Of a stretch of DNA of 55,018 bases, positions 1 through 22,800 are shown piece after piece. The notes below the pieces were generated by a model. That model worked only from the letters and a program-made list of their open reading frames with translations. It made no database searches and was not told where the DNA came from. The stretch spans positions 1-55,018 of the IMG/VR virus record IMGVR_UViG_3300031787_000155, one strand, 5' to 3'. Made by a program: the position numbers and the translations under genes. This DNA is from a virus. How positions within the stretch are numbered: the stretch's first letter is position 1; each line of letters opens with the position of its first letter.

Positions 1-2726
1 AATTTCGTGCTCAAGAAGAGCCAATTACAGTTGCCATTTATGCGGTAGGAAACTTAACTACTCCTATTGAAACAATTTCTCTTGTAAAAGGAAAAGCGTT
101 TACACACAATGGAACTATTGCTCGTATCCGTATTCTAACTGCAACTTCTGGTGGAAACACCGCAGGTACTGGTTCTACTCTTTTAATTATTAAGTACAGC
201 TCATCTATTCCAGCCCGTACGGGATCTTCTATTGACGGTCTTGGCGAAGTATACGCACATACCGAAAAGTCAACTGACTGGTTTGCTTACGAAGGTTATG
301 GTATGAATACCTCCCGTAACCCAATGACAGCTCGTCTTGATGGAACTGCAAATACTGCTGCATGGGTGTGCTGGACATATGATTCTACAGGAACTGGTGT
401 ATATCGCTTCCGTAACACCCCATCTGCAGGTCAAGGTATTGGAACCTCTTCAACAACCTTCTCAGGTATTGCTGGAAACTTCTTCTACAAGGCGCTTAAT
501 AACACAACTAATACTTGGACTCGTCTTGCAGATATTCCACTTCCCCCACAGTCTACTGAAAATGCAACTACATTTGTTGAGCAACGTCTTCGTCGTGCAG
601 TAATGTGGGACACAGGAGCAGATATTATTGTTTGGTTCCGATGCAACGACAACCGTACACAGACAATCAACTCAGTTGTTTATACCTCTGTTGATACCTA
701 TCTTTACACATACACAAAAGCCACAGATACTTGGACTTTTATTGGCGCATGGAACCTAGGCGCTACAGGTTACAACTCATATGTTGATGGTCCACAGATG
801 TCCTTTACTCACACCATTTCTGGTGTTCGTTATTGGTACAACTGGCAGCAGGAGCGTTCAGGTAACGGCTTTGTTAGGTATAACCTTTCCAACGGTGTAC
901 GAGACACAATCCAAACAGCTACCGATACTTGGCACGAAGGTTCTTATGTAAACAATTACTTCCTTGCTAGCCCAACTCAGGGTATTGGTAACACTGATGG
1001 CGGTACAACTGACTATCAGATTTATGATCCAACTAACAACGTGTGGGCAAAAGTAACGCCCCCATCTCGTACAAACGAGGCATCTACTTGGTTCCGTGGC
1101 GGTCAAATTTTCCGCTATAGCAACACAGCGTTTGGTGTTATTGGTCGTCGTACCTATACAACTAACGCTACCGCCCCATCCAACACAGATCGTTATTGGG
1201 GTCGTCGTCTCTATATCTATGACACAGCTACTCAATCTCTTGATCGTTGGCTTGATAAATCAGAAGATATGGGTGACTTCTACCCACTAGCAATGCGTCC
1301 AGGAAACGATACTTATGGCTCAACCTTTATTTGGCAGCCAGCGGACTCCTCTTGGAATGGTCGTTTCTGGCGCTTCCGCAATAACTATGGTGGTTCTGCG
1401 TTAACTCGTTATAACCACGATTATGTTGATACTCAAAAGCCTAAAAAAGTTGAGTACATTGGTAACTATCGTCCACGTGGCGAAATGGCTGTAGGTTTAA
1501 ATACAGTTTTTGCTTTCGGCTATCACAGAAACCCATTTGCTGCTCCGGTAACTTACGCAGGCTATAGCGACTGGAACGTCGATTCTGAAGTAATTGGTGG
1601 AAACAGCACGGGAGATACCGTAAGCACATCAACTCGTACAAGACATTCATTTGAGACTTGGGGTGGTGAGATGATTACTACTGCTGGTGAAGTTTATCCA
1701 GTGTTCCAAGAAATCACCATTAATCAAGCTATTTATGACCCTCAGATGCGACGCTACTACGTAACTGGTCTTATGCCATCTCGTCTTGGAGTTCTATGGA
1801 ATGATGGTAACTATAACTTTGCTACCTACAACCGTAACCCATGGCGTGCAGTATCGGGAATTCTTGAAGAAGATACTGGAAGATTCTGGTACCAGGATCA
1901 AGGATTTACCGGTGATCAGGGCGGTGATTCACACGACCCAACTATGTGGGATCGTGCCGGACAAACTTCTGGTTTGCAGGATCCAGGTGAACTAGCTATT
2001 TATGCAGCTGGCAGAGCTTACAAACCAGGCGTACACTTCATGCGTCCATACGATGCTAACCAGTACGAGGTATATAACATCTGGAATCAGTTTAACCGTC
2101 AATACGGTCGTAACTATCGCTGGACAAACTATACTTGGTATAGTTCCTCATACCAAGGTGCTGGTCAAGTCCCACAAGGATATACGCTAGGGCATGATGC
2201 TATCGATAACCGTTATGTACAGGTAGTAAAGTTTGGATCTGGTCGCTTAAACGCCATCAGTATTCCAGAAGGAACTATTTTCTGGGATGGACGTACTCTA
2301 GTTCAGTATAGCCGTGAACAAGGTGTTTCACCATTTACTGCTACTCAAACTGGATGGCGCCGTCTACACACGACGTCTAGCCCATACTGGACCGGTGACA
2401 CCACCATGCTTCGTGCTCCTCACGTATGGTATGACGGTCGGTATGCAATCTGTGAAAAACCAGATGGAACGGGATATTACGTATTTGATATGGATAATCT
2501 TGCGTCAGAACCAAAAATTATCTCATCTCACATTCCTATGAACTCTCGTTCTACACCCTCATATGTAGGAGCATCGTCTGGAACAATAGGAAACAACTGG
2601 TCTAACTTCTCCTACAACAAGGCTTGCCTTGGTGGAGTAGAAATTATTGCCGGTGGTTCTGAAGCAGATGGTGTACGTACTTGGAGAAATACCGCATACT
2701 TTTTAGTGAGAGCGAAGGAAGTGTAA
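1..2726 (+). CDS. large kelch-like virion/tail adhesion protein (5' end outside window)
   Basis: The reading frame is open from base 3 to the stop at 2726, so at least 907 residues are present and the N-terminus lies outside the window; the ATG at 303 is internal. Several segments have the kelch-repeat signature in which a Tyr-rich strand is followed by a turn and a Trp strand (NTWTRLADIP, YLYTYTKATDTWTF, YQIYDPTNNVWAKV, LYIYDTATQSLDRW), suggesting one or more beta-propellers. The protein is rich in Tyr, Trp, Asn and Thr and has no signal peptide or membrane segment in the visible part. Its position ahead of collagen-like fibre genes makes a receptor-binding or virion-surface role likely, but this is inference. 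No catalytic motif was recognised. Confidence 0.75.
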   Translation, partial: FRAQEEPITVAIYAVGNLTTPIETISLVKGKAFTHNGTIARIRILTATSGGNTAGTGSTLLIIKYSSSIPARTGSSIDGLGEVYAHTEKSTDWFAYEGYGMNTSRNPMTARLDGTANTAAWVCWTYDSTGTGVYRFRNTPSAGQGIGTSSTTFSGIAGNFFYKALNNTTNTWTRLADIPLPPQSTENATTFVEQRLRRAVMWDTGADIIVWFRCNDNRTQTINSVVYTSVDTYLYTYTKATDTWTFIGAWNLGATGYNSYVDGPQMSFTHTISGVRYWYNWQQERSGNGFVRYNLSNGVRDTIQTATDTWHEGSYVNNYFLASPTQGIGNTDGGTTDYQIYDPTNNVWAKVTPPSRTNEASTWFRGGQIFRYSNTAFGVIGRRTYTTNATAPSNTDRYWGRRLYIYDTATQSLDRWLDKSEDMGDFYPLAMRPGNDTYGSTFIWQPADSSWNGRFWRFRNNYGGSALTRYNHDYVDTQKPKKVEYIGNYRPRGEMAVGLNTVFAFGYHRNPFAAPVTYAGYSDWNVDSEVIGGNSTGDTVSTSTRTRHSFETWGGEMITTAGEVYPVFQEITINQAIYDPQMRRYYVTGLMPSRLGVLWNDGNYNFATYNRNPWRAVSGILEEDTGRFWYQDQGFTGDQGGDSHDPTMWDRAGQTSGLQDPGELAIYAAGRAYKPGVHFMRPYDANQYEVYNIWNQFNRQYGRNYRWTNYTWYSSSYQGAGQVPQGYTLGHDAIDNRYVQVVKFGSGRLNAISIPEGTIFWDGRTLVQYSREQGVSPFTATQTGWRRLHTTSSPYWTGDTTMLRAPHVWYDGRYAICEKPDGTGYYVFDMDNLASEPKIISSHIPMNSRSTPSYVGASSGTIGNNWSNFSYNKACLGGVEIIAGGSEADGVRTWRNTAYFLVRAKEV

Positions 2727-2729
2727 TAA

Positions 2730-3014
2730 ATGGCTAAAACTATTGACGTTACAAATAAAGTTGTAACTATTAAAACAGAAGAAGGTGGAGTTTATTTAAC
2801 TCAAACCTTTGATCCAAGAGAAGAAGGGTTCACACCCTTTGAATCTAACGCAGATGCTCAAGCCTGGGCAGAAGCTTGGGTAGCAGCTGATGAGGCCGAA
2901 CTAGTAGCCCGCGCTGAAGAAGAGGCAGCTAAAAAAGCTGCTTTTGAAGCGGATCAGGCTAAGCTTCTTGAAGAAGCAACTGCAGAGGTGCCTTCAGATC
3001 AGCTGGAGTCTTAA
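2730..3014 (+). CDS. small protein with acidic/alanine-rich helical tail, unknown function
   Basis: This 94-residue protein starts 3 bases after the previous stop and has an AAGGAAG ribosome-binding site inside the end of the upstream gene. Residues 1-45 look like a short beta domain, and residues 48-90 are a highly charged Ala/Glu/Lys helix, probably a coiled coil. A gene of this size directly after a large adhesin is often a fibre chaperone or tip attachment protein. No family was recognised, so this role is only positional. Confidence 0.6.
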   Translation: MAKTIDVTNKVVTIKTEEGGVYLTQTFDPREEGFTPFESNADAQAWAEAWVAADEAELVARAEEEAAKKAAFEADQAKLLEEATAEVPSDQLES

Positions 3015-3028
3015 AAAGTACTGATAGG

Positions 3029-3061
3029 ATAGGCGGGTCTATATGACCCGCCTATTTTATT
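3029..3061 (+). terminator. rho-independent terminator
   Basis: A perfect 11-bp stem (ATAGGCGGGTC, 3029-3039; GACCCGCCTAT, 3045-3055) encloses the 5-base loop TATAT and is followed by TTTATTT. It should end the transcript of the large adhesin unit. The next gene starts only 12 bases further on, with a GGAG ribosome-binding site at 3062-3065, so either termination is partial or that gene has a promoter overlapping the hairpin. Confidence 0.9.
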
Positions 3062-3072
3062 TGGAGCGCTAA

Positions 3073-3744
3073 ATGAAGAAAGTACTGATTGCTACAAGTT
3101 CTCCCACACCATTTTCCTCTATTTTTTATGCAAAAGCTTTAGCGGAAACTTATGCTAAGGGTATAGAAAACTCCATAGAGTTTGAATTTTTTTGGTCACC
3201 AAATGCCGAAGTGTATAGAAATGAAGCGGTAGAGTATCTATTTGAGAATAAATTTGATACATTAGTTCTTATAGAGCCCCATATTCAATGGGTTGCGGAT
3301 CATCTAATATCTATGATTAAAAATGACTCTCTTGTAGAAGCCGTACCTACTAAAAATTTTTATTCGCCAAACGATGAATATAACGTAGTTTTAAACCCAA
3401 TTAATGTAGATTCAGAAATAACCGCTAAGTTTATAGATTTTGATTTTGCTAAAATTGAAAAAGAAGTATTTACTCGTATAAAAGACTTTGTATTGACCGT
3501 TAATTTTCAAGATAATGATAAAACTTTAAATCAAACCACCATGTATTGGTATGCAACTTCTGGTGAATATGGTCCAAAATCACAAGATATAAACTTTTGT
3601 GAGGCTCTTGATAAAGCAGAGATACCTATAGTGGTACCAGTAGACCCATCTATTTGGGAACATATGTGGTCTCCGTATAAAACGCATTTAGGCAAACAAT
3701 TAGTTCGTAATTTTGTAGAAAAAGGGTTTCAAGAAGTTGAGTAG
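3073..3744 (+). CDS. GT-A-like glycosyltransferase homologue with degenerate DxD motif
   Basis: The 223-residue protein begins MKKVLIATSS and has the layout of short phage GT-A-type proteins: an N-terminal Rossmann-like strand, then a strand where these families carry a metal-binding Asp-x-Asp before Trp. Here the corresponding stretch (residues 66-73) reads LIEPHIQW, so both acidic metal ligands appear lost or replaced by Glu and His. The second half shows no motif I recognise. The gene overlaps the following methyltransferase by 8 bases, implying translational coupling and a joint role in modifying a glycan or virion protein. An inactive or metal-independent enzyme, or a binding subunit, is possible. 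Confidence 0.55.
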   Translation: MKKVLIATSSPTPFSSIFYAKALAETYAKGIENSIEFEFFWSPNAEVYRNEAVEYLFENKFDTLVLIEPHIQWVADHLISMIKNDSLVEAVPTKNFYSPNDEYNVVLNPINVDSEITAKFIDFDFAKIEKEVFTRIKDFVLTVNFQDNDKTLNQTTMYWYATSGEYGPKSQDINFCEALDKAEIPIVVPVDPSIWEHMWSPYKTHLGKQLVRNFVEKGFQEVE

Positions 3745-4270
3745 ATTTTATAGTGAGGCAGGACAAGACCTATTTGCCTTAACCATTTCTGACTTTAAAG
3801 AAAACGGTACCTATTTAGAGGTGGGTGCTGGACATTCTAGGACTATGTCTAATACGTTTCTTTTAGAAAAAGATTACGGCTGGAAAGGCCTATCCATAGA
3901 GAAGTATGAAAAACGAGTGTATGAATTTAACTCTAATCGATCTAATGAGTGCATAAAGGCGGACGCCCTTACGCTTAACTATCAAGAGTTATTAGATAGT
4001 AAAGGGTTTCCTAAGGAAATAGATTACCTATCTTTGGATATAGAGCCGGCTCCTCAAACCTTACAGGCCTTAAAAATGCTGTTAGCTACCGACTACATAT
4101 TTAAGGCAGTTACTTTTGAGCACGATCTATACGTTATGAAAGCAAATGATGCGGTTAAAAAAGAGTCTCACGCATTATTTTTAAGTGCTGGATACTCTCT
4201 CTATAAAGAGAACGTGTGTATAAATAACAACCCAAAAAGAGTCTTTGAGGACTGGTGGGTTTACATTTAG
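3737..4270 (+). CDS. FkbM-family SAM-dependent methyltransferase
   Basis: The start is a TTG at 3737, just before the upstream stop. The 177-residue protein matches the FkbM-type pattern: SEAGQDLF near residue 6, the SAM-binding strand and loop EVGAGHS (residues 28-34), a conserved NT pair (39-40), GW..GLSIE (48-55), and DYLSLDIEP about residue 95, which would hold the acidic post-II loop. Family members O-methylate sugars or polyketides. Its neighbours encode GT-like proteins and collagen-like fibres, so methylation of a fibre glycan is the simplest proposal; methylation of a host surface glycan cannot be excluded. Confidence 0.8.
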   Translation: MSRFYSEAGQDLFALTISDFKENGTYLEVGAGHSRTMSNTFLLEKDYGWKGLSIEKYEKRVYEFNSNRSNECIKADALTLNYQELLDSKGFPKEIDYLSLDIEPAPQTLQALKMLLATDYIFKAVTFEHDLYVMKANDAVKKESHALFLSAGYSLYKENVCINNNPKRVFEDWWVYI

Positions 4271-4295
4271 GCTAAAAAAACTGTCTAAATAACCC

Positions 4296-4310
4296 TATAC
4301 TGTCTTACTA
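4296..4310 (+). promoter_or_regulatory. putative -10 promoter for leaderless transcript
   Basis: The 39-base gap before the gene at 4310 contains TATACT (4296-4301) 8 bases before the ATG and no Shine-Dalgarno sequence. Transcription would start at or within a base or two of the ATG, giving a leaderless mRNA as is common in actinobacteria. No clear -35 box is visible. Confidence 0.45.
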
Positions 4311-4675
4311 TGGCCATAGATTTTCCAGACTCCCCCGTTCTTGATCAACAGTTCACTGTTGGTGAGACGACCTGGTATTGGAACGGCTCTGTTTGGCGCC
4401 TTCTTATTTCAGAAGGTGTTCAAGGAGATTTAGGACCTACAGGACCAGTCGGGCCGACAGGACCAACAGGACCTGGTATAACTGGTCCTACAGGACCGAC
4501 AGGACCTGGAGTAACAGGACCTACAGGACCGACAGGGCCTGTATCAACTCAGCCTGGACCTACGGGAGCTACAGGACCTACAGGTCCAGAAAATGACAAC
4601 GTAGATGGTGGAGCACCAAATAGCGTTTATGGCGGCGGTATTACTCTTAACGGCGGAAATGTACTAGGAGTTTAA
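4310..4675 (+). CDS. short collagen-like tail fibre protein (Gly-Pro-Thr repeats)
   Basis: This 121-residue protein has a short N-terminal domain with [20 protein letters not shown], found in many phage fibre proteins. A collagen-like segment of Gly-Pro-Thr or Gly-x-y triplets follows (about residues 40-95), with two short interruptions, then a small Gly/Asn-rich tail. It abuts the next, longer collagen-like gene and has no ribosome-binding site of its own, only a -10 box close to the ATG. GPT repeats trimerise as triple helices, and in Bacillus spore BclA they are O-glycosylated on Thr. The nearby glycan enzymes suggest this protein may be decorated (inference). Confidence 0.8.
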
Positions 4676-6568
4676 ATGGCAGTAAAGATTCAGTTTAGAC
4701 GAGGCACTGCCTCCGAGTGGAACCTCAATAACCCAATTCTTTCACAAGGTGAAGCTGGTTGGGAAACTGATACCGGTCGCTTTAAAGTTGGTAATGGTTT
4801 AACTCCTTGGAACTCTCTTGCATATTCTTCAGGTGTTACAGGACCTACGGGATCAACACCAACAGTTTCTGTTGGTACAACAACTACTCTTAATCCTGGA
4901 TCAAATGCAACAGTAGCAAACAGTGGAACTTCTACCGCTGCAGTTTTAAATTTTGGTATTCCTATTGGTGCAACTGGACCACAAGGTGCACTTGGTCCTA
5001 CAGGACCTACAGGACCTACTGGTGCGCAGGGTATAACTGGACCAACAGGTGCAGCCTCACAAGTTACTGGTCCTACAGGCCCAACTGGTCCAACAGGAGC
5101 ACAAGGTGTTACCGGCCCTACTGGCGCTGATTCACAAGTTACGGGACCAACAGGTCCTACTGGACCGCAAGGAGCTCAGGGCGTTCCTATAACTCTTAAA
5201 GGAAGTGTTGCAACTGTTGCCGCACTACCATCTACAGGTAACGTACTAAATGACGCTTATATAGTTGATGAGAACGGAGATATATACGTCTGGGACGGCT
5301 CACAGTGGTATAGCGCAGGACAGATTGTAGGAGCAACTGGCCCAACTGGTCCACAAGGAATTCAAGGTGTTACTGGACCTCAAGGAGATCTAGGGCCTAC
5401 TGGACCTTCAGGGGTAATTTCAGTAACTGGTCCTATTACAAATACTGGAACAGCAATAGCTGCAGTATTAGGTCTTGACCAAAGCTTAATTGAAACAGAA
5501 AATATTACTTGGGAAGTTTACAACACCGAAGAAGATCTACCAAGCGCAACCCTTAAACACGGCATGTTTGCACATGTTCACGGCACTGGGTATTCATATT
5601 ATGCCCATGCTGGTTCTTGGGTTAAACTAGCTAAAGATTCTGACCCTAGGTTTATAGATACTCGTACTCCTACAGACGGAACAGTCACAACTGCAAAAAT
5701 TGTGGATGCAAATGTAACTAATGTTAAGCTTGAAAATAGCAGCCTTACTATTGGGTCTACTCTTGTTTCTCTTGGAGGAACAGCAAGTACTGTTGCTGGT
5801 CTTACGCTTACTTCGCCAACAATTAGCACTATCAGCAATACCGGAACCCTTACCCTACCAACTAGTACAACTACACTGTTAGGTACGCACCAGTACACGG
5901 CAAAGGGAGATCTTCTTGCTGGAACTGCAGCTGGAACAGTGGGTATTTTATCTGCTGGAACAAATGGGTATGCTCTTACGACTAACTCCTCAACTGCAAC
6001 AGGGTTAGAATGGCTTAGCGTTGTTCCCGCTTCTTATGCCGTTTCCAACCTAAACCAGTCTGCGTCTGCTGTAGACGTATACCCTAGAATAGGAAACTCA
6101 AGCGCTGCCCTAACAAACGGCACCACATACCTATCGTTTTTCACACCGCTGTCAAACATAACAATTTCATCATTAACTGTAGTGTCTGCTAATACCGGCG
6201 CTTCCGGAACTACTCTTGCTCGTTTGGGGCTTTATACGTTTGATGGTACTACAGCTACTTTGGTAGCCAGAACTGCGTCTGACGTAACATTGTTTGGAAC
6301 TACAAATACTTTGTATAACCGGTCTTTTGACATCGTTGGTGGGTATCCCGCAAACTACACATTGCAGGCTGGACAAAGATACGCTTTAGGTATTATTTGG
6401 GTTGGGTCTACTTCCCCCACCGTCTACACTGCCTATAACTCTGTGCCCGGAATTATTAGCTCCTTATCCCCAAGAATTTCTGGAACCGTGCCTCTTCAAT
6501 CAGATTTACCACTTACATCCAATTCACTTAGCGCTACAACCGTAGCACCGTGGGGACGACTATCATGA
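4676..6568 (+). CDS. long collagen-like tail fibre with Mtd_N-type attachment domain
   Basis: The 630-residue protein opens with a domain of the phage fibre N-terminal type ([36 protein letters not shown], residues 4-51), as in major-tropism-determinant-like N-termini. Collagen-like GPT/GPQ triplets occupy about residues 100-170 and 219-246, separated by a globular insert with a VWDGSQW motif. The C-terminal 150 residues form a Ser/Thr/Gly-rich beta domain, probably the receptor-binding head. The start is supported by an AGGAG site before the ATG, which directly follows the preceding stop. It overlaps the next tiny gene by 4 bases (ATGA). Confidence 0.85.
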
Positions 6569-6678
6569 CAACTAGAGTAAGCTTAGGCATTGACCCAGAA
6601 ACAGGGGCTGAAAAATTTGAAGTCAGAGATGATAACGATAAGGTTATCGGATACGATTTGGTTTTTCCAGAAGAATAA
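6565..6678 (+). CDS. 37-residue acidic protein coupled to fibre gene
   Basis: A short frame starts at the ATG overlapping the fibre stop (ATGA) and ends at TAA 6676-6678. It encodes [12 protein letters not shown], a middle with [12 protein letters not shown], and a C-terminus [10 protein letters not shown]. The tight coupling and the clean gap to the next gene support its reality. Function is unknown; a fibre cap or assembly peptide is possible. Confidence 0.5.
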
Positions 6679-6695
6679 TATGACTGCGAGGGCGT

Positions 6696-7799
6696 ATGAA
6701 AATAGCCGTATATACAATAGCTTTAAACGAAGAGCACTTTGTAAAGAGGTGGTATGAATCCGCAAAAGAAGCAGATTATCTCCTTATTGCTGATACTGGC
6801 TCTAGCGATGGCACCGTTGATCTTGGTCGGTCTCTTGGCATAAGCGTAATTCCTATCTCCATAAAACCTTGGAGATTTGATGATGCTAGAAACGCTTCGC
6901 TTTCATTAATTCCAGACGATATAGATTTCTGCATAGCCTTAGACATGGATGAAGTGTTGGTGTCCGGTTGGCGTAAATACTTGGACAACATTTCAAAAGA
7001 AACAACCCGCCCTAGATATAAATATACTTGGAGTTGGAATCCGGATGGGTCGCCAGGATTAGAATACGGTGGAGATAAAATTCACGCTAGACATGGATAT
7101 CGTTGGAAACATCCTGTACACGAAGTGTTGACTGCAGACCGCATAGACGAAGTACAGACTTGGATAGGATTAGAAATTCAGCACTATCCGGATAATGAAA
7201 AACCCAGATCACAATATTTTCCACTATTAGCTCAATCAGTAAAAGAAGACCCATATGACGATAGAAATGCTTTTTATTATGCTAGAGAGTTATTTTTCTA
7301 TGGACAATTTGAAGAGGCTATCGCTGAGTTTAAAAGGCACCTAAGTCTTCCAAAAGCAGTGTGGAGACCAGAACGTGCGGCATCTATGCGCTATATTGCA
7401 AAAATGTCAGAAAACTCTGATGAGCGAGAGCAGTGGTTGCTTAAAGCCCATAATGAAGATCCCGGAAGACGGGAAGCGTTAGTAGAGCTAGCGCAGTATT
7501 ACTATGAGAGAAGTATGTGGACGGCCTGCTATCAAGCAGCAACTAAGGCCATAGATATTGAGGCTAAGCCTTTGGACTATCTATGTGAAGAATTTGCCTG
7601 GGGATCGGCCCCCTGGGACTATGCAGCCATCTCCTATTACAACCTAGGAGATTTTGATAAAGCCGTTAAATATGGAGCTAAGGCCGTAGAATTGAACCCA
7701 AATGACCAACGCCTTACAGCTAATCTAGCGTTTTATTCGAAGGAGCAATCCCTTGGCAACAACATACAAGATCCTAGGGCAAGTAGCCCCGGCAGCTAA
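6696..7799 (+). CDS. GT2-family glycosyltransferase with C-terminal TPR-like helices
   Basis: The 367-residue protein shows the GT2 fold: MKIAVYTIALNEE at the start, the nucleotide-binding loop ADTGSSDGT (residues 32-40) and the metal-binding LDMDE (82-86, DxD intact). Residues about 200-350 are helical and resemble tetratricopeptide repeats (FYYARELFFYGQFEEAI; YNLGDFDKAVKYGAKAVELNPND), which could bind a protein acceptor. GAGGG upstream supports the ATG at 6696. It lies between fibre genes, and its last 47 bases overlap the next gene. A role in glycosylating fibres or a host-surface glycan is inferred. Confidence 0.85.
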   Translation: MKIAVYTIALNEEHFVKRWYESAKEADYLLIADTGSSDGTVDLGRSLGISVIPISIKPWRFDDARNASLSLIPDDIDFCIALDMDEVLVSGWRKYLDNISKETTRPRYKYTWSWNPDGSPGLEYGGDKIHARHGYRWKHPVHEVLTADRIDEVQTWIGLEIQHYPDNEKPRSQYFPLLAQSVKEDPYDDRNAFYYARELFFYGQFEEAIAEFKRHLSLPKAVWRPERAASMRYIAKMSENSDEREQWLLKAHNEDPGRREALVELAQYYYERSMWTACYQAATKAIDIEAKPLDYLCEEFAWGSAPWDYAAISYYNLGDFDKAVKYGAKAVELNPNDQRLTANLAFYSKEQSLGNNIQDPRASSPGS

Positions 7800-8094
7800 C
7801 GTATCTGGAGGTAGTCAGCTATACGCAGTACCTTCAACCGCAGGTAGTGCGGCTGTCGTATCCACCATCGTAATCTGCAACCGAGGTACGTCTGCTGCAA
7901 CCTACCGCATCGCTATTCGTGAGGATAACGCTGCCTTAGATAATAAGCAGTATCTTGCTTATGACACCTCTGTACCAGCTAACACTACAACCACGTTTAC
8001 TCTGGGAGTTACACTATCTGCTTCAGATACCATTACTGTAGTAGCTTCTACAGCTAACTTAACATTCCAGGCATTCGGTTCTGAGGTAGCGTAA
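7753..8094 (+). CDS. small beta-rich virion protein
   Basis: This 113-residue protein uses a TTG start with AAGGAG 9 bases upstream, and overlaps the glycosyltransferase by 47 bases in another frame. It is Ser/Thr/Ala/Val-rich, with the pattern LYAVPSTAGSAAVVSTIVICNRGTS and a C-terminal strand LTFQAFGSEVA. This pattern recurs in small tail-fibre-associated proteins of aquatic phages and suggests an all-beta immunoglobulin-like fold. The exact function is unknown. Confidence 0.75.
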   Translation: MATTYKILGQVAPAANVSGGSQLYAVPSTAGSAAVVSTIVICNRGTSAATYRIAIREDNAALDNKQYLAYDTSVPANTTTTFTLGVTLSASDTITVVASTANLTFQAFGSEVA

Positions 8095-8669: not shown

Positions 8670-8905
8670 TGGCAATTAGAAGATATAACGCAAATACCGG
8701 ACAGTGGGAACAATTTGGTAGTCCACAACTAAACCCAGCTAGCTTAGGAATTACTCCGGCATCAATTGGCGCAGTTGCTGTAAATAACGGAACAGTTACT
8801 ACAGCTAATCCTGGACAAGCTGCTGTTAGAAATACATTCGTCTCTACTAACGCCCCATCATCTGGGCAAGGTAACGACGGAGATCTCTGGGTGCAGTATA
8901 TCTAA
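8669..8905 (+). CDS. small fibre-linker protein
   Basis: A 78-residue protein coupled by TAATG to both neighbours. It reads MAIRRYNANTGQWEQFGSP at the start and ends with SSGQGNDGDLWVQYI. Short N(T/G)GxWEx and GDLWVQY segments are typical connectors in phage fibre proteins. It could be an adaptor for the large polyproline protein that follows; the function is not established. Confidence 0.65.
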   Translation: MAIRRYNANTGQWEQFGSPQLNPASLGITPASIGAVAVNNGTVTTANPGQAAVRNTFVSTNAPSSGQGNDGDLWVQYI

Positions 8906-10971
8906 TGCCAGGTCAAGCGAAGGTTGGCGGTACTTGGAGGACGGCGTCTCGTCTTTCAGTTAAAATAAGCGGTCAATGGAAAACCGTTACTGCTGCCTAC
9001 GTTAAAGTTAATGGTCAATGGCGTCAATGGTTTGCTTCTAGAATAGAGGACACCTTTAGCAGAGCGTCTTCCGTATCATCTTTGGGAACGGCTGAAAGTG
9101 GACAAACATGGTTGTCTTTTGGTGGTGGTGTTTGGAAAGTAAATGGGTCTCAACAAGCATCATGTGATGAAAGCCCCAGCAGCAATGCATTAACCGTAGC
9201 AGATTTATATAGCTCTAGTTTTGACGCTAGGGTAAGTACTAGCGGCGGTGTCGGGTTAGCTTTTTGGGTAACAGACTCTAATAATTGGTGGGCAGCAGTA
9301 CCTAGATACTCGTTGTCTGATGGCGTATACCTATCATCTATTGATGTTATTAGAAATGTGTCGGGAACAAGATCAACGGTATATACCGCGGTAATAAATT
9401 ATAGTAGTTCTGCCTACACGTCTATAAATAGCATTTCTGTAAAATCTTTAGACGGAACGTTAAGGATAATCGCTTATTCTGATCTTTTAGCAACTACTCA
9501 ATTATCAGTGCCGCTAATAGTCACTCCCCCATCTCCTGTTCAAGGTACTTATATTGGGTTAATTAAAACTTTAAGTTCTGATCAACAGGGTAGCACTGCA
9601 GACAATATTTACATAACGTCTCCCGCAACTACCGAAGCGACTTCATCTTTTTATCAAGTCGGTACATTTCTCAATGAGTTGTATTGCAGCGGAGTAAATA
9701 GACGTCAACGTCTTGGGTACCTTCGATATAGTTCTGCAGGAGTTACTAATAATGAATTTATATTAGACAAATTAGTAGAATCTAACTCGGTGGTATGCGG
9801 ATATGTAGCTCCACCACCACCTCCGCCACCACCGCCTCCACCTCCACCGCCACCTCCTCCTCCGCCACCAGGGCCAGGAGGATGTACTATCACTTCGTAC
9901 TCAGCATGGTCATACAGCGGTATTACTTGGAGCGGTAACTGCGTTAACAACACTGAATCCGGTACAGCTACTACTAGGACTAGAACTGATAACTGTAACA
10001 ATAGTTATACTGAAACTGGTAGTTTTGCTACTGCTCGTACTTGTACTGTTCAATGTGGATCTTGTGAAACCTATACGTTTACACAACCTACATGTAACGG
10101 GGAAGATTCCTACGTAGGAAACTACACCGGTTATAGAAGACTCTGTGATGGGGTCTATACTACTGATGGTTGTCCTGCAGCTACCCTTACGAGCTATGGT
10201 AATTGTATTGCTGTAAACGTTTCTGGTTGCGGGGGTAGTGGCGGCTCTGGAAGCAGCTGCCCTACATTAACTTGTGGCACTCAATATGGAAGTACTCAAG
10301 GACCTGTAGGTAGCGGAAGCTGCCCTGATGGATCTTGCCCGGGATGCACTAACTATCAAACTTATTGGCCTAAGTGTTCGGATGGAACTACAAACTATGG
10401 TAGCCCATACTATGTTGGTCTTGGTTGTAGCACTCCACCGCCACCACCTCCGCCACCACCACCCCCTCCACCTGCTCCCTGTGGGTGTAACGATTGCGGT
10501 TGCTGCGGTTTGTGTGATGAAATACCTTCAGGAACTGTATACCGAGCTGAGTGTTGCGGTAATGCCTTGCGTATAGCAAACTATAATTGTTGTGGAAGCA
10601 TATCTGGATACTCTTACGTATGTCAGGATAGTTGTACGCCACCTCCACCACCGCCTCCACCGCCACCGCCACCTCCACCTCCACCACCTCCACCTCCACC
10701 ACCTCCACCAGCGGATCCATGTAGTAATGTGAGCTGTCCGACTTGCTATGAGTGTTTCTTAGGATTTTGTGAGTTTGTTGGCTGTCCGTCAACACCTCCG
10801 CCTCCACCACCTCCGCCTCCGCCTCCACCACCACCTCCACCTCCAGGTTGTGTACCTAACCAAGGAGATATCTGTGAAGTCTACGGTTATGGCCCTGGCG
10901 GAGAGTGCGCTAGACTGGGTACCGTAAGCTGTGCAGGTAACTGTACTAACTTGGGAGGCATCGTTTGCTAA
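8905..10971 (+). CDS. polyproline-rod / cysteine-rich modular virion protein
   Basis: The 688-residue protein has an N-terminal WR/WKTV repeat segment (residues 1-48, KVGGTWRTAS, KISGQWKTV, KVNGQWRQW) and a lectin-like beta domain (about 50-245). Then come four uninterrupted proline tracts of 20, 13, 24 and 17 residues encoded at 9811-9870, 10435-10473, 10639-10710 and 10795-10845. Between and after them are Cys-rich modules, one with a thrombospondin-1-like look (YSAWSYSGITWSGNC...RTRTDNC) and one with CGCNDCGCCGLC. Polyproline II rods would act as stiff spacers about 4-7 nm long, and the cysteines suggest disulphide or metal-bound knots. There is no signal peptide. It is coupled to the previous gene by TAATG. 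No named family was recognised. A long exposed fibre or tip is likely, and the prolines are natural targets for the oxygenase at 11701. Confidence 0.8.
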   Translation: MPGQAKVGGTWRTASRLSVKISGQWKTVTAAYVKVNGQWRQWFASRIEDTFSRASSVSSLGTAESGQTWLSFGGGVWKVNGSQQASCDESPSSNALTVADLYSSSFDARVSTSGGVGLAFWVTDSNNWWAAVPRYSLSDGVYLSSIDVIRNVSGTRSTVYTAVINYSSSAYTSINSISVKSLDGTLRIIAYSDLLATTQLSVPLIVTPPSPVQGTYIGLIKTLSSDQQGSTADNIYITSPATTEATSSFYQVGTFLNELYCSGVNRRQRLGYLRYSSAGVTNNEFILDKLVESNSVVCGYVAPPPPPPPPPPPPPPPPPPPPGPGGCTITSYSAWSYSGITWSGNCVNNTESGTATTRTRTDNCNNSYTETGSFATARTCTVQCGSCETYTFTQPTCNGEDSYVGNYTGYRRLCDGVYTTDGCPAATLTSYGNCIAVNVSGCGGSGGSGSSCPTLTCGTQYGSTQGPVGSGSCPDGSCPGCTNYQTYWPKCSDGTTNYGSPYYVGLGCSTPPPPPPPPPPPPPAPCGCNDCGCCGLCDEIPSGTVYRAECCGNALRIANYNCCGSISGYSYVCQDSCTPPPPPPPPPPPPPPPPPPPPPPPPADPCSNVSCPTCYECFLGFCEFVGCPSTPPPPPPPPPPPPPPPPPGCVPNQGDICEVYGYGPGGECARLGTVSCAGNCTNLGGIVC
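9811..10845 (+). repeat. four CCN-repeat polyproline-coding tracts
   Basis: Pure runs of proline codons occur at 9811-9870 (20 codons), 10435-10473 (13), 10639-10710 (24) and 10795-10845 (17). CCA, CCT and CCG are mixed and CCC appears once, so the protein tract is conserved without a simple DNA repeat; slippage alone would give a more uniform codon. Confidence 0.95.
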
Positions 10972-11411
10972 CAAAACGATTTGCATTTGTTGTTGAAGGC
11001 GATGTGTTCTTAACTATGGACCTACCTGATCAACCCAGCGATATTAGTACAAGAAGTTGGGACAGATGGATTGCGGCATTTAGCTCTGATCCATCAGTCA
11101 TAAATATCGACCGTTACCCTAACGTGGACAAAACGTACACATATAAGGATGGAATTTTTTATTCTGACTCTGAAATGCTATATCCGGCTACAGAAGTTGA
11201 GAGCGTTTCAGAAGGTATCTGTAGGGTAGCTGTGGTTGTTGATGAGGATGTAGTAGGAACAATTACCTATGTTAAAGAGGATATGGATCCAGAAGATTTT
11301 TATAGGATTCAGGCTGGTTTATCCTCTGATGCCCATGTATTTCCCTGCTCCCAAGAAGTTTCTATTGGTTGGGTGCATGACGGAACCGCCTTTTTACCCC
11401 ACACCAATTAA
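10965..11411 (+). CDS. hypothetical 148-residue protein of the fibre cluster
   Basis: The start is a TTG with GGAGG 7 bases upstream, overlapping the end of the polyproline gene by 7 bases. The protein is acidic, with EGDVFLTMDLPDQPSD near the start and a WVHDGTAF segment at the end. No family was recognised. Coupling to the polyproline protein suggests a chaperone, adaptor or tip role (inference only). Confidence 0.65.
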   Translation: MLTKRFAFVVEGDVFLTMDLPDQPSDISTRSWDRWIAAFSSDPSVINIDRYPNVDKTYTYKDGIFYSDSEMLYPATEVESVSEGICRVAVVVDEDVVGTITYVKEDMDPEDFYRIQAGLSSDAHVFPCSQEVSIGWVHDGTAFLPHTN

Positions 11412-11417
11412 GTAGGG

Positions 11418-11430
11418 TACACTATACGCA
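11418..11430 (+). promoter_or_regulatory. putative -10 promoter for leaderless transcript of the hydroxylase operon
   Basis: TACACT (11418-11423) lies exactly 6 bases before the ATG at 11430, and there is no Shine-Dalgarno sequence in the 18-base gap. A start of transcription on the A of the ATG would be expected. TATACG (11423-11428) is an overlapping alternative, too close to the ATG. Confidence 0.4.
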
Positions 11431-11690
11431 TGTCTGCATGGAAAGAATATAAGCAAAAACTCCAAGATATGAAAGAAGCTCAAGGAGAAACTAGACCTTG
11501 GCAACTTTTAAATAAGGATAATTACACTACCGACGCTATAGCTGAGCTTAGGTTTAACATTTGTAGGGGCTGCGAATTTCTTACAAAATCTACAAACCAG
11601 TGTAAAAAATGCGGTTGTTTAATGCACCTAAAAACTAAATTAAAACTTGCGGAATGTCCCGTAGGAAAATGGTCTAAAACGGAAGATTAA
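11430..11690 (+). CDS. small zinc-binding (DUF6171-like) protein
   Basis: The 86-residue protein has six cysteines in the order C45-x2-C48...C58-x2-C61-x-C63...C76, within ICRGCEFLTKSTNQCKKCGC and ending AECPVGKW. This agrees with small Cys-rich phage proteins that often sit among glycan and oxygenase genes in aquatic myophages. A structural zinc is likely. The N-terminal half is charged and helical. It is the first gene of an apparent four-gene operon with the hydroxylase and GT60-like enzyme, so an accessory or scaffold role is possible. Confidence 0.7.
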   Translation: MSAWKEYKQKLQDMKEAQGETRPWQLLNKDNYTTDAIAELRFNICRGCEFLTKSTNQCKKCGCLMHLKTKLKLAECPVGKWSKTED

Positions 11691-11700
11691 GAGGGCTAAA

Positions 11701-12261
11701 ATGTTTAATCCAAAAGTAGTATCAAATTTTTTATCTAAAGAAGATTGCGAATACGTAGTAACCACCGTATCTAAAGTAGATACTTGGGAGGGTGCGGGCA
11801 ATGATTTTTGGTCTAATAGGGCTTTAGGACTTCCCAACCTTAGAAAAAACATAGACCCTAAAGTTGCAGATATTGTTGCCGAAGCCACCATAAAAGTTAA
11901 AAACGCTATTATGTTTGAGTACGGCCTAGACAAAGAAGTTTACGCAGATCTTACTCAAATTATTCGTTGGTTTCCCGGAATGGAGCAACCCCCTCACGCA
12001 GACGACATGACTAATACAGAACATAGAGGTTTTGAGCATAGGGTATTTGGAGCGATAATTTATTTAAACGATAACTATTCTGGGGGTCATACGTACTACC
12101 CGGAGCATAATTTTGAGGTTATACCAAAAGCTGGAAACTTAGCTATACATCCTGGTGATCCTGAACATCTTCATGGCGTAACTAAAATAGAAGATAGCAC
12201 TAGGTACACGATTGCTTCTTTTTGGACTTTTGATAAATCTAAAGAGTATGCGTTGTACTAA
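11701..12261 (+). CDS. 2OG-Fe(II) oxygenase, prolyl-4-hydroxylase-like
   Basis: This 186-residue protein carries the iron and 2-oxoglutarate ligands of the prolyl-4-hydroxylase type. These are H99-x-D101 within FPGMEQPPHADD, H158 within PEHLHGV, and R168, ten residues after the distal histidine. GAIIYLND and GGHTYYPE are the usual intervening strands. Enzymes of this group hydroxylate proline or other residues on proteins, consuming 2-oxoglutarate and O2. AGAGGGCT upstream supports the ATG. Its stop overlaps the next gene by one base (TAATG), which places it in a unit with a GT60-like enzyme. Polyproline and collagen-like fibres upstream are plausible substrates; this is inference. Confidence 0.88.
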   Translation: MFNPKVVSNFLSKEDCEYVVTTVSKVDTWEGAGNDFWSNRALGLPNLRKNIDPKVADIVAEATIKVKNAIMFEYGLDKEVYADLTQIIRWFPGMEQPPHADDMTNTEHRGFEHRVFGAIIYLNDNYSGGHTYYPEHNFEVIPKAGNLAIHPGDPEHLHGVTKIEDSTRYTIASFWTFDKSKEYALY

Positions 12262-13154
12262 TGCATGAAAAAATACTTATTTCTGTCCCTTCATATAGAG
12301 AAATAGAATTAGAACACACTGTTCGTTCTTTTTATGAAGACGCTAAGTATAAAGATCGTATCTTATTCTCTGTAGTATCTCAAGACTACGAGCATCCAGA
12401 TCTTTCATTTATACCTACTTTAAATTTAAGATATCTAAAAGTAAATCCAAAAGAAACTTACGGCGTAACTTGGGCGCGATCTTTATCAACCGCCATGTTT
12501 AGCGATTACGATTATGTTCTTCAGATAGACGCACACATGTTTTCTGTAAAAAATTGGGATGTCGACATAATAAATGTATATAAAAAAGCAAAAGAAAAAT
12601 TCAATTCCCCAGTAGTTTTGAGCGCATACCCCGCGATGTATAGACTATATTCCAATGGAAACAGAGAAACAGGACCGGTTTTACGTATGTCCCACGCCGT
12701 ATTAGAAGGTGCCCAGTTTAGAAATTGGCCTAGTCATAAAGAAGCCGAAGACTTAACAGAACACCACTATATACATGGAGCTTGCGTTTTTTCTGAAAAA
12801 GAGTTTTTGTTAAAAGTGCCTCAAGACCCAGAATTAGATTTTTTTTGTGATGAGATGTGTTTAAGTATTAGGGCTTTTTATCACGGCTACCCAATAGTTT
12901 TTTTTAATAACCCGGTATTTTTTCATTTTTACTCGCAAGATAGAATAGCTATACAAAGTAACGTAAAGCCGTGGAATGATGGCCACCCCAAATTAGACAT
13001 GTTAAATGATACCTCTAGGGGAAACAAATTTATACGCGGAGAGCTTGAAGGTTTTTATGGTGTCCCTAAAAAAACTATAGATGAGTTTTGTAAATTAACC
13101 GGGTATATAGTTCCTTTAAACATAAGCAAAATAGGGGTGCCAACTCATGATTAA
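12261..13154 (+). CDS. GT60/Skp1-GnT1-like GlcNAc-transferase (PF11397 type)
   Basis: The 297-residue protein follows the Glycosyltransferase (GlcNAc) family along its N-terminal half. It begins ILISVPSYREIELEHT, then AKYKDRILFSVVSQ, GVTWARSL (68-75), and YVLQIDAHMFSVKNWD (85-100), with the metal-binding D90-x-H92. VVLSAYPAMYRL follows at about 118-129. In Dictyostelium, Skp1 GnT1 of this family adds GlcNAc to a hydroxyproline made by a P4H. Here a P4H-like gene ends one base inside this one. The second half holds FFCDEMCLSIRAF and FHFYSQDR, probably acceptor-binding. The phage substrate is unknown, and virion prolines are the best guess. Confidence 0.85.
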   Translation: MHEKILISVPSYREIELEHTVRSFYEDAKYKDRILFSVVSQDYEHPDLSFIPTLNLRYLKVNPKETYGVTWARSLSTAMFSDYDYVLQIDAHMFSVKNWDVDIINVYKKAKEKFNSPVVLSAYPAMYRLYSNGNRETGPVLRMSHAVLEGAQFRNWPSHKEAEDLTEHHYIHGACVFSEKEFLLKVPQDPELDFFCDEMCLSIRAFYHGYPIVFFNNPVFFHFYSQDRIAIQSNVKPWNDGHPKLDMLNDTSRGNKFIRGELEGFYGVPKKTIDEFCKLTGYIVPLNISKIGVPTHD

Positions 13155-13881
13155 TAAAGACACTTTTGTTCCAAAACAAACGTTAGTTGTCGTACCACAA
13201 CCAGGGATAGACAAAAAGGATATTGATAAGCTTTTAATACCTCTGACAGAAATTAAAAAAAGAGATTGGTTTACTTCTCACTTTTACTATTGCCTTCCGC
13301 TGTCTATAGGAAATGTTTATGGGTTTATAGTAAGAGCTGAACGAGACGTAACTGTTCATTGGAATGGGGACGACTCTATACATGGCCTTATAATAAATCA
13401 AAAACATGAAGACGCTAGATGTCAACGATTTGATGGTCATTTTGGTTCTGGAATATTAACAATTCAAAACTTATGGCATTATCGAACTCCGCCAGGAATA
13501 AATTTAATGACTATAACCCCACCTAATTTTCCTCAACACGGGCTTATGCATATGACTGGGGTAATAGAGACTGATAATCTTAGTCGTGATTTTACCTTTA
13601 ATTTAAAAGTCACCAAACCTAATATCTATGTGACTATAAAGGCAGGAGATCCTATTGGAGCTTTTATACCAATACCTAGATATTTTGCAGATCGTTTTAC
13701 CATCAAATATGCAGACGAACTGTTTACCCCTGAAGAGATTGAGTTAGAGTACAAAGCCGGGACCGAATTAGCTAGGCAACGGCAACAAGAGGACATGCTA
13801 AAGCCCCACTCAGCCGGAAGAAAATATTTTAGGGGTAGGGATGCCTGGGATAACCCTTTTATTGATCATCAAAAGAAGTAG
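13147..13881 (+). CDS. DUF6065-like protein
   Basis: The 244-residue protein overlaps the GT60-like gene by 8 bases. Conserved-looking stretches include CLPLSIGNVYGFIV, TVHWNG, GHFGSGILTI, HYRTPPGINLMTITPPN, LTGVIETD-like (MTGVIETDN) and AGDPIGAFIPIPR, which fit my recollection of DUF6065. This domain has no established function but is often found with oxygenases and glycan genes. The second half has a Glu/Arg/Gln helical tail. Membership in the operon suggests it takes part in the same modification or in substrate handling. Confidence 0.7.
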   Translation: MINKDTFVPKQTLVVVPQPGIDKKDIDKLLIPLTEIKKRDWFTSHFYYCLPLSIGNVYGFIVRAERDVTVHWNGDDSIHGLIINQKHEDARCQRFDGHFGSGILTIQNLWHYRTPPGINLMTITPPNFPQHGLMHMTGVIETDNLSRDFTFNLKVTKPNIYVTIKAGDPIGAFIPIPRYFADRFTIKYADELFTPEEIELEYKAGTELARQRQQEDMLKPHSAGRKYFRGRDAWDNPFIDHQKK

Positions 13882-19894: not shown

Positions 19895-22800
19895 AAACTT
19901 GATGCCTGCTGGCGACGATAATATCGTTGGCGGGATGACTTCTGGTGTCGATAAACTATTTACAAAGATGGACAAAGGCCAAAAGCAAATGCTTAAGGTC
20001 TTTAAAGAAGTTGAAAAAGTTACCGAGAAGATAAAGAAAAATATGGAAGCCGCCAATGGCGGTAAATCATCCTCGGGAATGTCTAGCTCTTTGGGTGCTA
20101 TGCCCACGTTTGGAGCTTCACGGGCAGCAACTATTGCAGGTAGGGTAGGGCTAGGAACTGCAGCTGTAGGCGCTATTGGTATGGGCATGATGCCAAACAC
20201 AAGCGCTGCTGTTACACAACGTTTAGGTGCAGATGCTGTAGCAGGTATTAGTGGTCTTAATTCTCGTCAAGTAATATTAAGATCTAACAATGCGGTAGGT
20301 GGCGGAGCAACTAGCGCTATGGGTCCAACCATGGCGGCCATGTCCCTTATGTACAGTGGTGGCTATACAGCTAATAGCGGCACCTTTAGAAATGTTATGC
20401 CACAAGTTGGTGGCTTAAGTGCATTAACTGGCGGCACCAACGAACAGATGGCGCAAGGATTAGCCGGCATAAATGCTATGCGGTTCCTTCGCATAGGTGT
20501 TCAAGCTCGTGATACTAAAGGAAACTTACGACCACCTAATGCAATTATTAACGACACGTATAGATTTTTATACGGTGGGCGAAAAGTAACTCCAGAACAA
20601 GCCGCTTTAGTTCTTAATCCAGGATCTAAAGGCTATGCAACTATTCAAGCTATTGCTGGTGGAGATCAAAACCTTGCTGGAATTATCCAAATGGGAATCA
20701 TTGCTCGTGCAAAGAAAGACAGCCCTCTAAAAAAAGAAGACCTTAAAGGGTCAAACCGAGCACTAGATCTTTTGGGTGTTGGTCAAGAAAGCCCTATGCG
20801 AACTAACTTCCGCTACAACACTAGCGAAGCTCGTAAGCTACAGGCTACAGAAAAAGGTTTAGTAGGCGGATACAACGTAGCTATGAGAACAACAGCTGCG
20901 GTTAACGATGGTTTTAGCAAGCTAGCAGAAGAGGCTGCAGGCGTTGCAAATGCATTGGGAACACTACGTGGCGTACTCCAAACATTACCTGCAGCAGGAA
21001 ATACCGGAGCTACTCTAACTGGTGTAGCCGGTACTGCAGCAAGTGTAGGAATGAATATGTACATGCTTTCTAAGATGCGTGGACTTTATGCAGCGGGAAC
21101 TGCCGGTGCTGCAGCAGCTACGGGAGGCGTTACTGCTGGTGGTGCAGCTGCAGCAGCAGGAGCTACCGGTGCAGCAGGATACTTAGCAAAAGCAAAAGGT
21201 TTATTTAAGGGCGGATTTAAAAGTCCTTTTGTAAAAGGATTAGGAAGAGCTGGACTTGCACTTGGCGTATATCAAGGCATGGAGTTTTTACAAAAGAGGA
21301 TGCAGGTGGGTCCTGGCTGGCTTCGTGCTGGCGGTAACTTTATGTTTGATTTAGGCCAGGGTGCGTTAACTGGTTTAGCTGCTGGCGGTATACCTGGAGC
21401 AGTTGCAGGAACTGTGGCTGGTGGAGTGGGATCAATAGCAAATCCTTACGGACAAGGTGGCGACTGCACTCACGGAAATGTTGGGCCACATAAGTGTGGT
21501 GTTGGTGGAGACAACAGCACAAGTATGCAGAATATGCCTGCCGGATCTATGTCTGCTCCACAAAAAGGATTTACAACAGGTAAGGGTCCGGGCAATCAAG
21601 ACACTAAAGGTCAAATATTTGGTATGCCTGTCCCGGCAGGTACTAGAGTTACTTCTCATTACGGTCCTCGAGATAACTCAAAGAACCCACAAATTTCTGC
21701 ATACCACAGGGGTATTGACTACGGTGTACAAGTAGGTACTCCAATTGTTGCAGCAGCTAACGGTACGGTTACACATGCCGGAACACATAGGCAATACGGA
21801 TACTACATAATTCTAAATCACGGAAAAAAGAGCACTCTTTACGGACACTTAAGCCAAATTTTAGTAAAGGTTGGGCAGCAAGTAAACAAAGGCGATGTAA
21901 TCGCAAAGTCTGGTGGTAAGAGGGGTGCCCCTGGAGCAGGTACTTCTACAGGTCCTCACCTTCACTTTGAGCTTAGAGATCCTGGCGGAGTTGGAGCACA
22001 AGGGCGAGTAAACCCTAAGAGTTTCTTTGGTAAATTAGTAAGTAGTGTTAAGAGCGCTGTAAGCAACATCTTTGGTGCTGTAAAGGGATTTCTAGGAATA
22101 GGTAAAGAAAAAGAAGACATTAAAAGCAAAACTATTCGTAACTCTGGAGAGGGGCTGCGTTTTGAAGGAACGCTGTCTAACCTAAGCAGCGTGCCATTAA
22201 GTGAGTCTTTAAGCAGCTCTATGATGTCTGGAGCCCCAGTAAACTTTGCTGATTTCCAAAGAGAGTTTCCAGCAGATGATATTGAACAAGGCATAAGATT
22301 TGGAAAATCTGGTGGGAAACATTTCTTAAACAACACCATAGATAAAGTGTCTGGTGACAGTGGGTCCATGGTTGGGGGAAGTAGAAAAGGACTAATTCAG
22401 TTCTTACACAATATTGGTTTTAGAGGAAAAGCTTTAGATACTGCGTTTGCTGTTGCATTGGCAGAATCTGGTGGTAATTCTGGAACTATCAATAAGCGTA
22501 GTAAGGATTATGGCCTATTCCAGATCAATATGGATGGCAAAAACTATGACGATAGAATAAAGAAAGAGTGGAACTATCACGGTACCAAGTTTAAATTAAA
22601 AGGGCTTGGTGATCTTTTAAATCCCACAACTAATGCCAAAGTTGCATATCACATGACGAACAAAGGAAGAAACTGGATTAGGTGGGTATCCCACAATACA
22701 GGTGACTATACCAAGTTCTTAGATGATGCAGTTATGGCTAGAGAACAAGCAGGTATAGGTGGAGACAACCCTGCAACTGCTGGCATGGCTATGGAAACTA

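Follow-up and report, generated by a model that had tools for sequence, protein, structure and literature searches.

Proline hydroxylation and glycosylation are known from plants and amoebae and appear not to have been described in phages. The closest described system is the Skp1 hydroxyproline pathway of Dictyostelium and Toxoplasma (PhyA and Gnt1, CAZy family GT60), which, like the phage locus described here, combines a 2-oxoglutarate (2OG) oxygenase of the prolyl-hydroxylase type with a GT60-type transferase. Skp1 is a eukaryotic protein. In the phage locus the two genes are adjacent and overlap, and in another phage locus (L233) they occur as one chain. The phage system differs in that the proposed acceptor is a virion protein with proline tracts rather than Skp1, and in that the cassette can be swapped and has the extra partners DUF6171 and DUF6065. 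By analogy, and from the genes alone, the cassette is proposed to work like the Skp1 pathway. GT60 includes, besides Skp1 Gnt1, a polypeptide GlcNAc-transferase from T. cruzi (PMC6939170).

The oxygenase shares the conserved HxD...H motif and a basic residue with leprecan/prolyl 3-hydroxylase and with bacterial, algal and viral P4H, but it is phage-encoded and often occurs as several in a row. 2OG-Fe(II) oxygenases of the same superfamily are found in cyanophages, some near tail or coat genes, and cyanophage P-RSM4 has a "leprecan-like" one. The cyanophage enzymes are proposed to tune the 2-oxoglutarate level (PMC3037559), phage 2OG oxygenases are listed as auxiliary metabolic genes (PMC9602691) and 2OG oxygenases as auxiliary genes (PMC10580990), and the prolyl hydroxylases that collagen triple helices require are said to be absent from bacteria and viruses (PMC3368898). 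Among the matches listed in the open-licence PMC literature, as far as their accessible text goes, none reports phage-encoded proline hydroxylation or hydroxyproline glycosylation. For cyanophage S-SCSM1 the count given is 24 2OG-Fe(II) oxygenases (PMC9602691); 12 were found by our profile, and the record annotates more. One annotated oxygenase (20510–21061 of S-SCSM1) lies 2.4 kb before a Pro-rich virion gene annotated as VrlC; otherwise no tight pairing of oxygenase and Pro-rich genes was seen in this phage, the oxygenases being mostly dispersed.

The locus and its phage

The window is the whole stretch of DNA analysed, 55,018 nucleotides (IMGVR_UViG_3300031787_000155, positions 1 to 55,018, one strand). 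Coordinates below are window coordinates unless preceded by an L-number, which denotes another locus compared with the window. A tail sheath gene is present, and the best named matches of the DNA polymerase (38–40% identity) and of the sheath (36–37%) are Streptomyces phages, e.g., Alone3 and BRock. The phage is contractile-tailed, with an actinobacterium as likely host since its nearest named relatives are Streptomyces phages. In Alone3 and BRock the interval from the head genes to the sheath is occupied by tailspike or tail-fibre genes, and in the parts of it shown the annotation names neither an oxygenase nor a glycosyltransferase.

All genes of the region discussed here are on the plus strand. 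A collagen-like GPT-repeat protein of 121 amino acids with nine GPT triplets (4310–4675) is followed by a collagen-like fibre protein of 630 amino acids with an Mtd_N domain (4676–6568; PF18454, 51.1 bits; PF01391, 39.3 bits), both possible further acceptors, and by a GT2-type glycosyltransferase with TPR repeats (6696–7799; phrog_13126, E 4e-118; TPR_14, 37 bits; PF13704, 22.2 bits, under the Pfam cut-off of 27.5), which may serve the fibre locus as a second sugar transferase. Further along lies the proposed acceptor, a Pro-rich, Cys-rich protein of 688 amino acids (8905–10971; 98 P, 45 C). Of its prolines 74 form four pure tracts, as the earlier note had counted; the tracts are 20, 13, 24 and 17 residues long. 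The poly-Pro tracts hold no Ser or Thr, and the Pro-rich segments, measured in L222, which has the same protein, contain 11%. Next come a 148-aa protein (10965–11411), whose place is taken by ORFs of about 140 amino acids in several related loci, and the four cassette genes (11430–13881): DUF6171, a small Cys-rich protein (11430–11690; PF19668, 32.4 bits); the 2OG-Fe(II) oxygenase of 186 amino acids (11701–12261); the GT60-type glycosyltransferase of 297 amino acids (12261–13154); and a DUF6065 protein (13147–13881; PF19541, 127.8 bits, which bears out its earlier designation as DUF6065-like). The oxygenase and transferase ORFs do overlap by one base, base 12261 being common to both. The earlier note had the Pro-rich gene and two collagen-like GPT genes immediately upstream of the oxygenase. 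All three exist and lie upstream, but the 148-aa gene and the DUF6171 gene separate the first from the oxygenase, and the other two are 5–7 kb away.

The oxygenase

The oxygenase matches PF13640 (E 2.2e-8, 35.4 bits, Pfam cut-off 27), a family that includes non-prolyl members. H99, D101, H158 and R168, which the earlier note had listed, are present and invariant in all 11 sequences of an alignment of diverse relatives (A11). With A11 as profile, the best match among PDB sequences is prolyl 3-hydroxylase 1 (P3H1; E 5e-17), followed by three bacterial-type P4H entries (E 8e-15); the remaining chains are 5c5t P4H, 2jig/2jij P4H, P4HA2, a "Predicted protein" and one PKHD-type hydroxylase. Eight of the ten chains bear the name prolyl hydroxylase or procollagen-proline dioxygenase, and the match to the "Predicted protein" is identical to that of 2jig, which we take to be an algal P4H. 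Searched as a single sequence, the oxygenase also finds prolyl hydroxylases first, albeit weakly (E 0.0016). The residue aligned with R168 is Arg in P3H1 and Lys in the bacterial P4H. By family placement the enzyme is thus prolyl-hydroxylase-like, as had been supposed from the start; hydroxylation of peptidyl-proline is its predicted activity.

The GT60-type transferase

The match of the transferase to PF11397 (E 7.1e-28, 98.5 bits, Pfam cut-off 21) lies far above the cut-off, and the earlier assignment to a PF11397/GT60-like family holds; eight of nine related records are above the cut-off, too. Both motifs pointed out before, GVTWAR (68–73) and YVLQIDAHMF, are present. D90 and H92 form the DxH that defines the PF11397/GT60 family and are conserved without exception in the 38 sequences of alignment A12.

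Modelling, as had been advised, gave an AlphaFold model with a pLDDT of 90.4, whose first 29 fold matches are all polypeptide GalNAc-transferases (Z 18.5–22.2, rmsd 3.0–3.7, 238–264 residues aligned), GalNAc-T2 being the closest (Z 22.2, rmsd 3.3, 259 aligned). The next match, chondroitin polymerase (Z 18.1), ties with the last GalNAc-transferase and is 4 below the first. With GT60 profiles no sequence relative of solved structure turned up at E ≤1, and a single-sequence search of solved structures yielded only a chance-level match to a receptor. The phage DxH presumably corresponds, by residue offset, to the motif of GalNAc-T2. It should be noted, however, that the identity to these GT27 enzymes is only about 12%, that the phage protein belongs to another Pfam family, and that its 297 amino acids presumably leave no room for the GT27 lectin domain. 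The shared fold leaves donor and acceptor unsettled; by analogy, UDP-GlcNAc is a candidate donor and a polypeptide a candidate acceptor.

Named phages matched by the window GT60 query are XacN1, CM1 and RAS14 only, with no cyanophage among them. A longer GT60-type protein is found in large-phage clusters (L011, L012, L026, L028); in XacN1 (L011) the gene after it is annotated as carbamoyl transferase. GT60-type genes occur also in bacteria, since in a plasmid search the GT part was matched in 8 of 15 entries among the matches listed. When bacterial genome contigs were scanned with the alignments of GT and of DUF6065, there were matches to the pattern and no confirmed relative.

DUF6171, DUF6065 and family A14

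DUF6171 is, judging from its cysteines only, probably zinc-binding. With its alignment as query 36 loci were found, among them near-identical relatives of the window. The DUF6065 model (pLDDT 85.1) has a dUTPase-like fold (dUTPases with Z 9.7–10.5, rmsd 2.4–5.8, 106–138 residues aligned), with weak sequence support (E 0.048). No named phage matched the window DUF6065 or its homologue in L291. An enlarged DUF6065 profile labelled 173 ORFs, many at weak E-values only; one such weak member was tested and had no Pfam match, and the weak labels are not to be trusted.

A further family of cassette proteins, A14 (L224:4405–4971, L063:1460–2035, L233:8501–9103, L120:1505–2143), has an invariant HxD and is possibly a divergent 2OG oxygenase. 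Three members have no Pfam match, and no significant PDB match was found. L120 and L121 have a Pro repeat, DUF6171 and an A14 member, with no oxygenase called, and were counted as oxygenase-free despite A14.

The cassette is exchanged as a block

Between the window and L008, dS is 0.36 for DUF6171, 0.42 for the oxygenase, 0.48 for GT60 and 0.42 for DUF6065, as against 1.72–2.69 for the Pro-rich gene, the gene downstream of the cassette, sheath, tube, GT2 and the gene at 8097. Near 11435, at the 5′ edge, DNA identity goes up from about 0.2 to about 0.9; beyond 13935 it drops to about 0.7. L020 is the converse case: its flanks are near those of the window (dS 0.94–1.02), and its cassette is a divergent version (amino acid identity 37% for the oxygenase, 52% for GT60, 65% for DUF6065 and 70% for DUF6171). 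The four genes are swapped between phages as a unit. DUF6065 and the putative zinc-binding protein, which the earlier note had suspected to be further parts of the system, both lie inside this block. All four genes have dN/dS values of 0.05–0.13 (window–L007, window–L008) and are therefore under purifying selection.

Oxygenases and proline-repeat genes

A Pro-repeat gene was defined as one with 10 or more P within 24 amino acids (Pro score). In many divergent DUF6171 loci the order is Pro-repeat gene, short gene, DUF6171, oxygenase(s), and sugar or other enzymes. The oxygenase-anchored set consists of 78 loci used out of the best 80 of a longer list; the second set of loci in the comparison is likewise the best 80 of a longer list. 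Within the best 80, the oxygenase-anchored loci have the same gene order as those retrieved with DUF6171. At least two oxygenase-labelled ORFs are present in 72 of the 78 (maximum 11), and 33 of the 50 with ≥4 kb 5′ of the anchor have a Pro-repeat gene ≤6 kb upstream on the same strand. Counted by cluster (70% identity), again within the best 80, the upstream gene is found in 9 of 13; of the remaining four, L231, L233 and L240 have a Pro-rich gene of lower score (8–9) and L230 has a collagen-like gene. The repeats vary in sequence (poly-P, PPVV, PPPIIAT, PFFP, TPVTPV, TPAP, TPTP), and proline is therefore the common element. In L266, L292, L285 and L291, up to 11 oxygenase-labelled ORFs directly follow (PFFP)n or (PPYF)n genes; these arrays have no GT60 within the DNA examined.

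Of the 43 oxygenase loci that are ≥10 kb long (from the best 80 of the longer list), 31 have a Pro-repeat gene at any position, as compared with 2 of 61 oxygenase-free loci (1 of 36 GT60-anchored, 1 of 25 sheath-anchored), a difference of Fisher P 2e-14 when kinship among loci is ignored. The sole oxygenase-free sheath-anchored locus with a Pro-repeat gene and its relative L120 carry A14. The Pro-repeat gene lies ≤2 ORFs from a cassette-labelled ORF, weak DUF6065 labels included, in 97% of 32 loci versus 56% on random placement, and in none of 2000 permutations were the genes as close in total. Among the sheath-anchored oxygenase loci 7 of 13 have a Pro-repeat gene, several being near-identical phages. 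The other six have none of score ≥10; some of these loci end early, and L097, L098 and L146 have none despite about 10 kb upstream of the sheath.

The linkage does not run both ways. Among at least 120 loci chosen for Pro-codon repeats regardless of the cassette, 52 had an in-frame Pro-repeat ORF (28 of these loci are ≥10 kb), and only one of the 52 had an oxygenase (L393). L333 has a poly-Pro gene and no oxygenase. That a Pro-repeat gene implies an oxygenase was rejected on these grounds.

Pairing of oxygenase and GT60

GT60 was found in only 4 of the 78 oxygenase-anchored loci (best 80 of the longer list), and 74 show none. Conversely, an oxygenase is present anywhere in 6 of 71 further GT60-anchored loci, 65 showing none within the DNA examined, so a GT60 gene cannot be taken to imply an oxygenase. 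Because many loci are fragments, the occurrence of partner genes is in each case a lower bound. Of the 71 loci, 46 (within L151–L221, e.g., L169) have an ORF of 139–147 amino acids right after GT60, an order with hardly any oxygenase or Pro-repeat gene; L045 and L148 have DUF6171, GT60 and DUF6065, and neither an oxygenase nor a Pro-repeat gene; and L291, a 90-kb record with eight cassette-labelled ORFs, has no PF11397 match.

Oxygenase and GT60 lie ≤2.5 kb apart in eight architectures (window type, L020, L057–L062, L063/L064, L224/L226, L233, L393 and L207). Seven of them have a Pro-rich gene upstream (Pro score 8–24); in the eighth, L207, a fragment of 4.4 kb, none is visible. The same pair beside Pro-rich genes, which the earlier note had advised looking for in other phages, does recur in these architectures, L207 excepted, but most oxygenase loci show no GT60 and vice versa. 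The link between oxygenase and Pro-repeat gene is thus the core and GT60 an optional module: the core is probably an oxygenase plus a proline-rich virion protein, and the sugar enzyme an exchangeable addition.

In L233 a single chain of 498 amino acids (L233:6489–7985) matches both PF11397 (109.7 bits) and PF13640 (69.1 bits). It comes after DUF6171 and two small ORFs and before another oxygenase, and upstream of it a 909-aa protein is encoded whose repeats are of the PAPV type. To judge from this sequence, it supports the view that the two activities are coupled in one lineage or more. L393 was found from the acceptor side and has, within 56–7930, two oxygenases, two GT60-type ORFs (one weak) and DUF6065-like ORFs. 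It agrees with hydroxylation followed by glycosylation, since the weak GT60 match (1.4e-9) directly adjoins the oxygenases and Pro-rich genes are found upstream at distances of about 3 and 6 kb, but it is a single case among 52. In two other Pro-repeat cassettes a Radical SAM/SPASM enzyme stands between oxygenase and GT60 (L224:6321–7256, tested with Pfam; L057:6622–7557, called by its similar start), in L224 beside a JmjC_2 protein.

Proposed function and alternatives

This is a mobile phage cassette that most likely modifies a proline-rich virion protein. The region 11430–13881 would be a virion-protein modification island within the tail-fibre region. In a first step the oxygenase, with O2, 2-oxoglutarate and Fe(II), would hydroxylate prolines in the tracts of the 688-aa protein and perhaps also in the collagen-like fibres. 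In a second step, of which we are less sure, the GT60-type enzyme would place an N-acetylhexosamine, by analogy α-GlcNAc, on the new hydroxyls; within pure poly-Pro tracts hydroxyprolines would be the sole side-chain hydroxyls. DUF6171 and DUF6065, which travel with the enzymes, may be adaptors or carriers, which is a guess, and the likely outcome would be a stiffer, sugar-coated fibre or spacer. As a whole this two-step reading, predicted from the genes, is our best explanation, with a chance approaching one in two. Its parts differ: hydroxylation of proline by the cassette, on which one of the alternatives agrees, is predicted with fair confidence, and HexNAc on the hydroxyl of hydroxyproline only tentatively, with slightly less for it than against it. 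The hydroxyproline-glycosylation system proposed at the outset thus gains from the family placements, the movement as a block, the single chain of L233 and the linkage to Pro repeats, but not as a fixed two-step pathway, in view of the partner counts (74 of 78, 65 of 71, 1 of 52).

Against the two-step reading also speaks that Thr occurs in several of the partner repeats (TPTP, TPAP), where a GT60 enzyme could use it directly. This leads to an alternative that we consider unlikely, although it is the strongest competitor: the oxygenase hydroxylates proline, the GT60-type enzyme glycosylates Ser/Thr directly, and the cassette is a unit because both enzymes serve the fibre, neither making the other's substrate. 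It would fit GT60 genes near Thr-Pro-rich genes with no oxygenase detected (L187, L362), the Ser plus Thr fraction of 0.24–0.27 in the Pro-rich segments of L162, L173 and L187, the resemblance of the model to polypeptide GalNAc-transferases, and the placement of the T. cruzi polypeptide GlcNAc-transferase in GT60 (PMC6939170). However, the Pro gene of L162 and that of L173 do have an oxygenase next to them, the window's poly-Pro tracts are devoid of Ser and Thr, its Pro-rich segments having 11%, and both the single chain of L233 and the one-base overlap suggest coupled steps.

An action of the enzymes on glycans of the host surface or on a small molecule, e.g., in superinfection exclusion or host takeover, with proximity to the fibre genes due to host-range recombination, is rather improbable. 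It leaves unexplained why the genes recur next to Pro-repeat genes of differing repeat sequence and why a locus can have up to 11 oxygenase-labelled ORFs, even though GT60-type genes do occur in glycosyltransferase-like clusters of several large-phage loci, mostly without an oxygenase (in L028 it is about 7 kb away), and cyanophage 2OG oxygenases have been proposed to tune 2-oxoglutarate (PMC3037559). An action of the pair on DNA by TET/JBP-like oxidation and subsequent base glycosylation, to which a weak Tet_JBP match (E 0.058, 13.1 bits versus a cut-off of 34.9) and the carbamoyl transferase annotation beside the XacN1 gene might point, is very improbable and was set aside because the genes lie in the tail-structure region, the oxygenase has its best relatives among the prolyl hydroxylases, and a dNMP kinase is the only nucleotide-metabolism family among ten further window proteins, the remaining window having been tested in part.

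If hydroxylation with glycosylation of the virion protein is true, phage fibre chemistry would be tied to host oxygen and 2-oxoglutarate, phage 2OG oxygenases would have a possible explanation, and compact enzymes for making glycosylated polyproline proteins would be at hand. It is conceivable, though somewhat doubtful, that many aquatic and soil phages carry such exchangeable islands, hydroxylating and in some lineages glycosylating long proline-repeat virion proteins; the products would be hydroxyproline-rich glycoproteins resembling plant extensins. In that case at least part of the abundance of 2OG oxygenases in phage genomes would be explained, and L233 would encode a one-chain enzyme of hydroxyproline glycosylation.

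Elsewhere in the window, a 687-aa ORF on the minus strand (52318–54381), overlapped by several plus-strand ORFs, has no Pfam or PHROG match, and a small heat-shock protein is encoded at 39722–40213 (HSP20, 60 bits).
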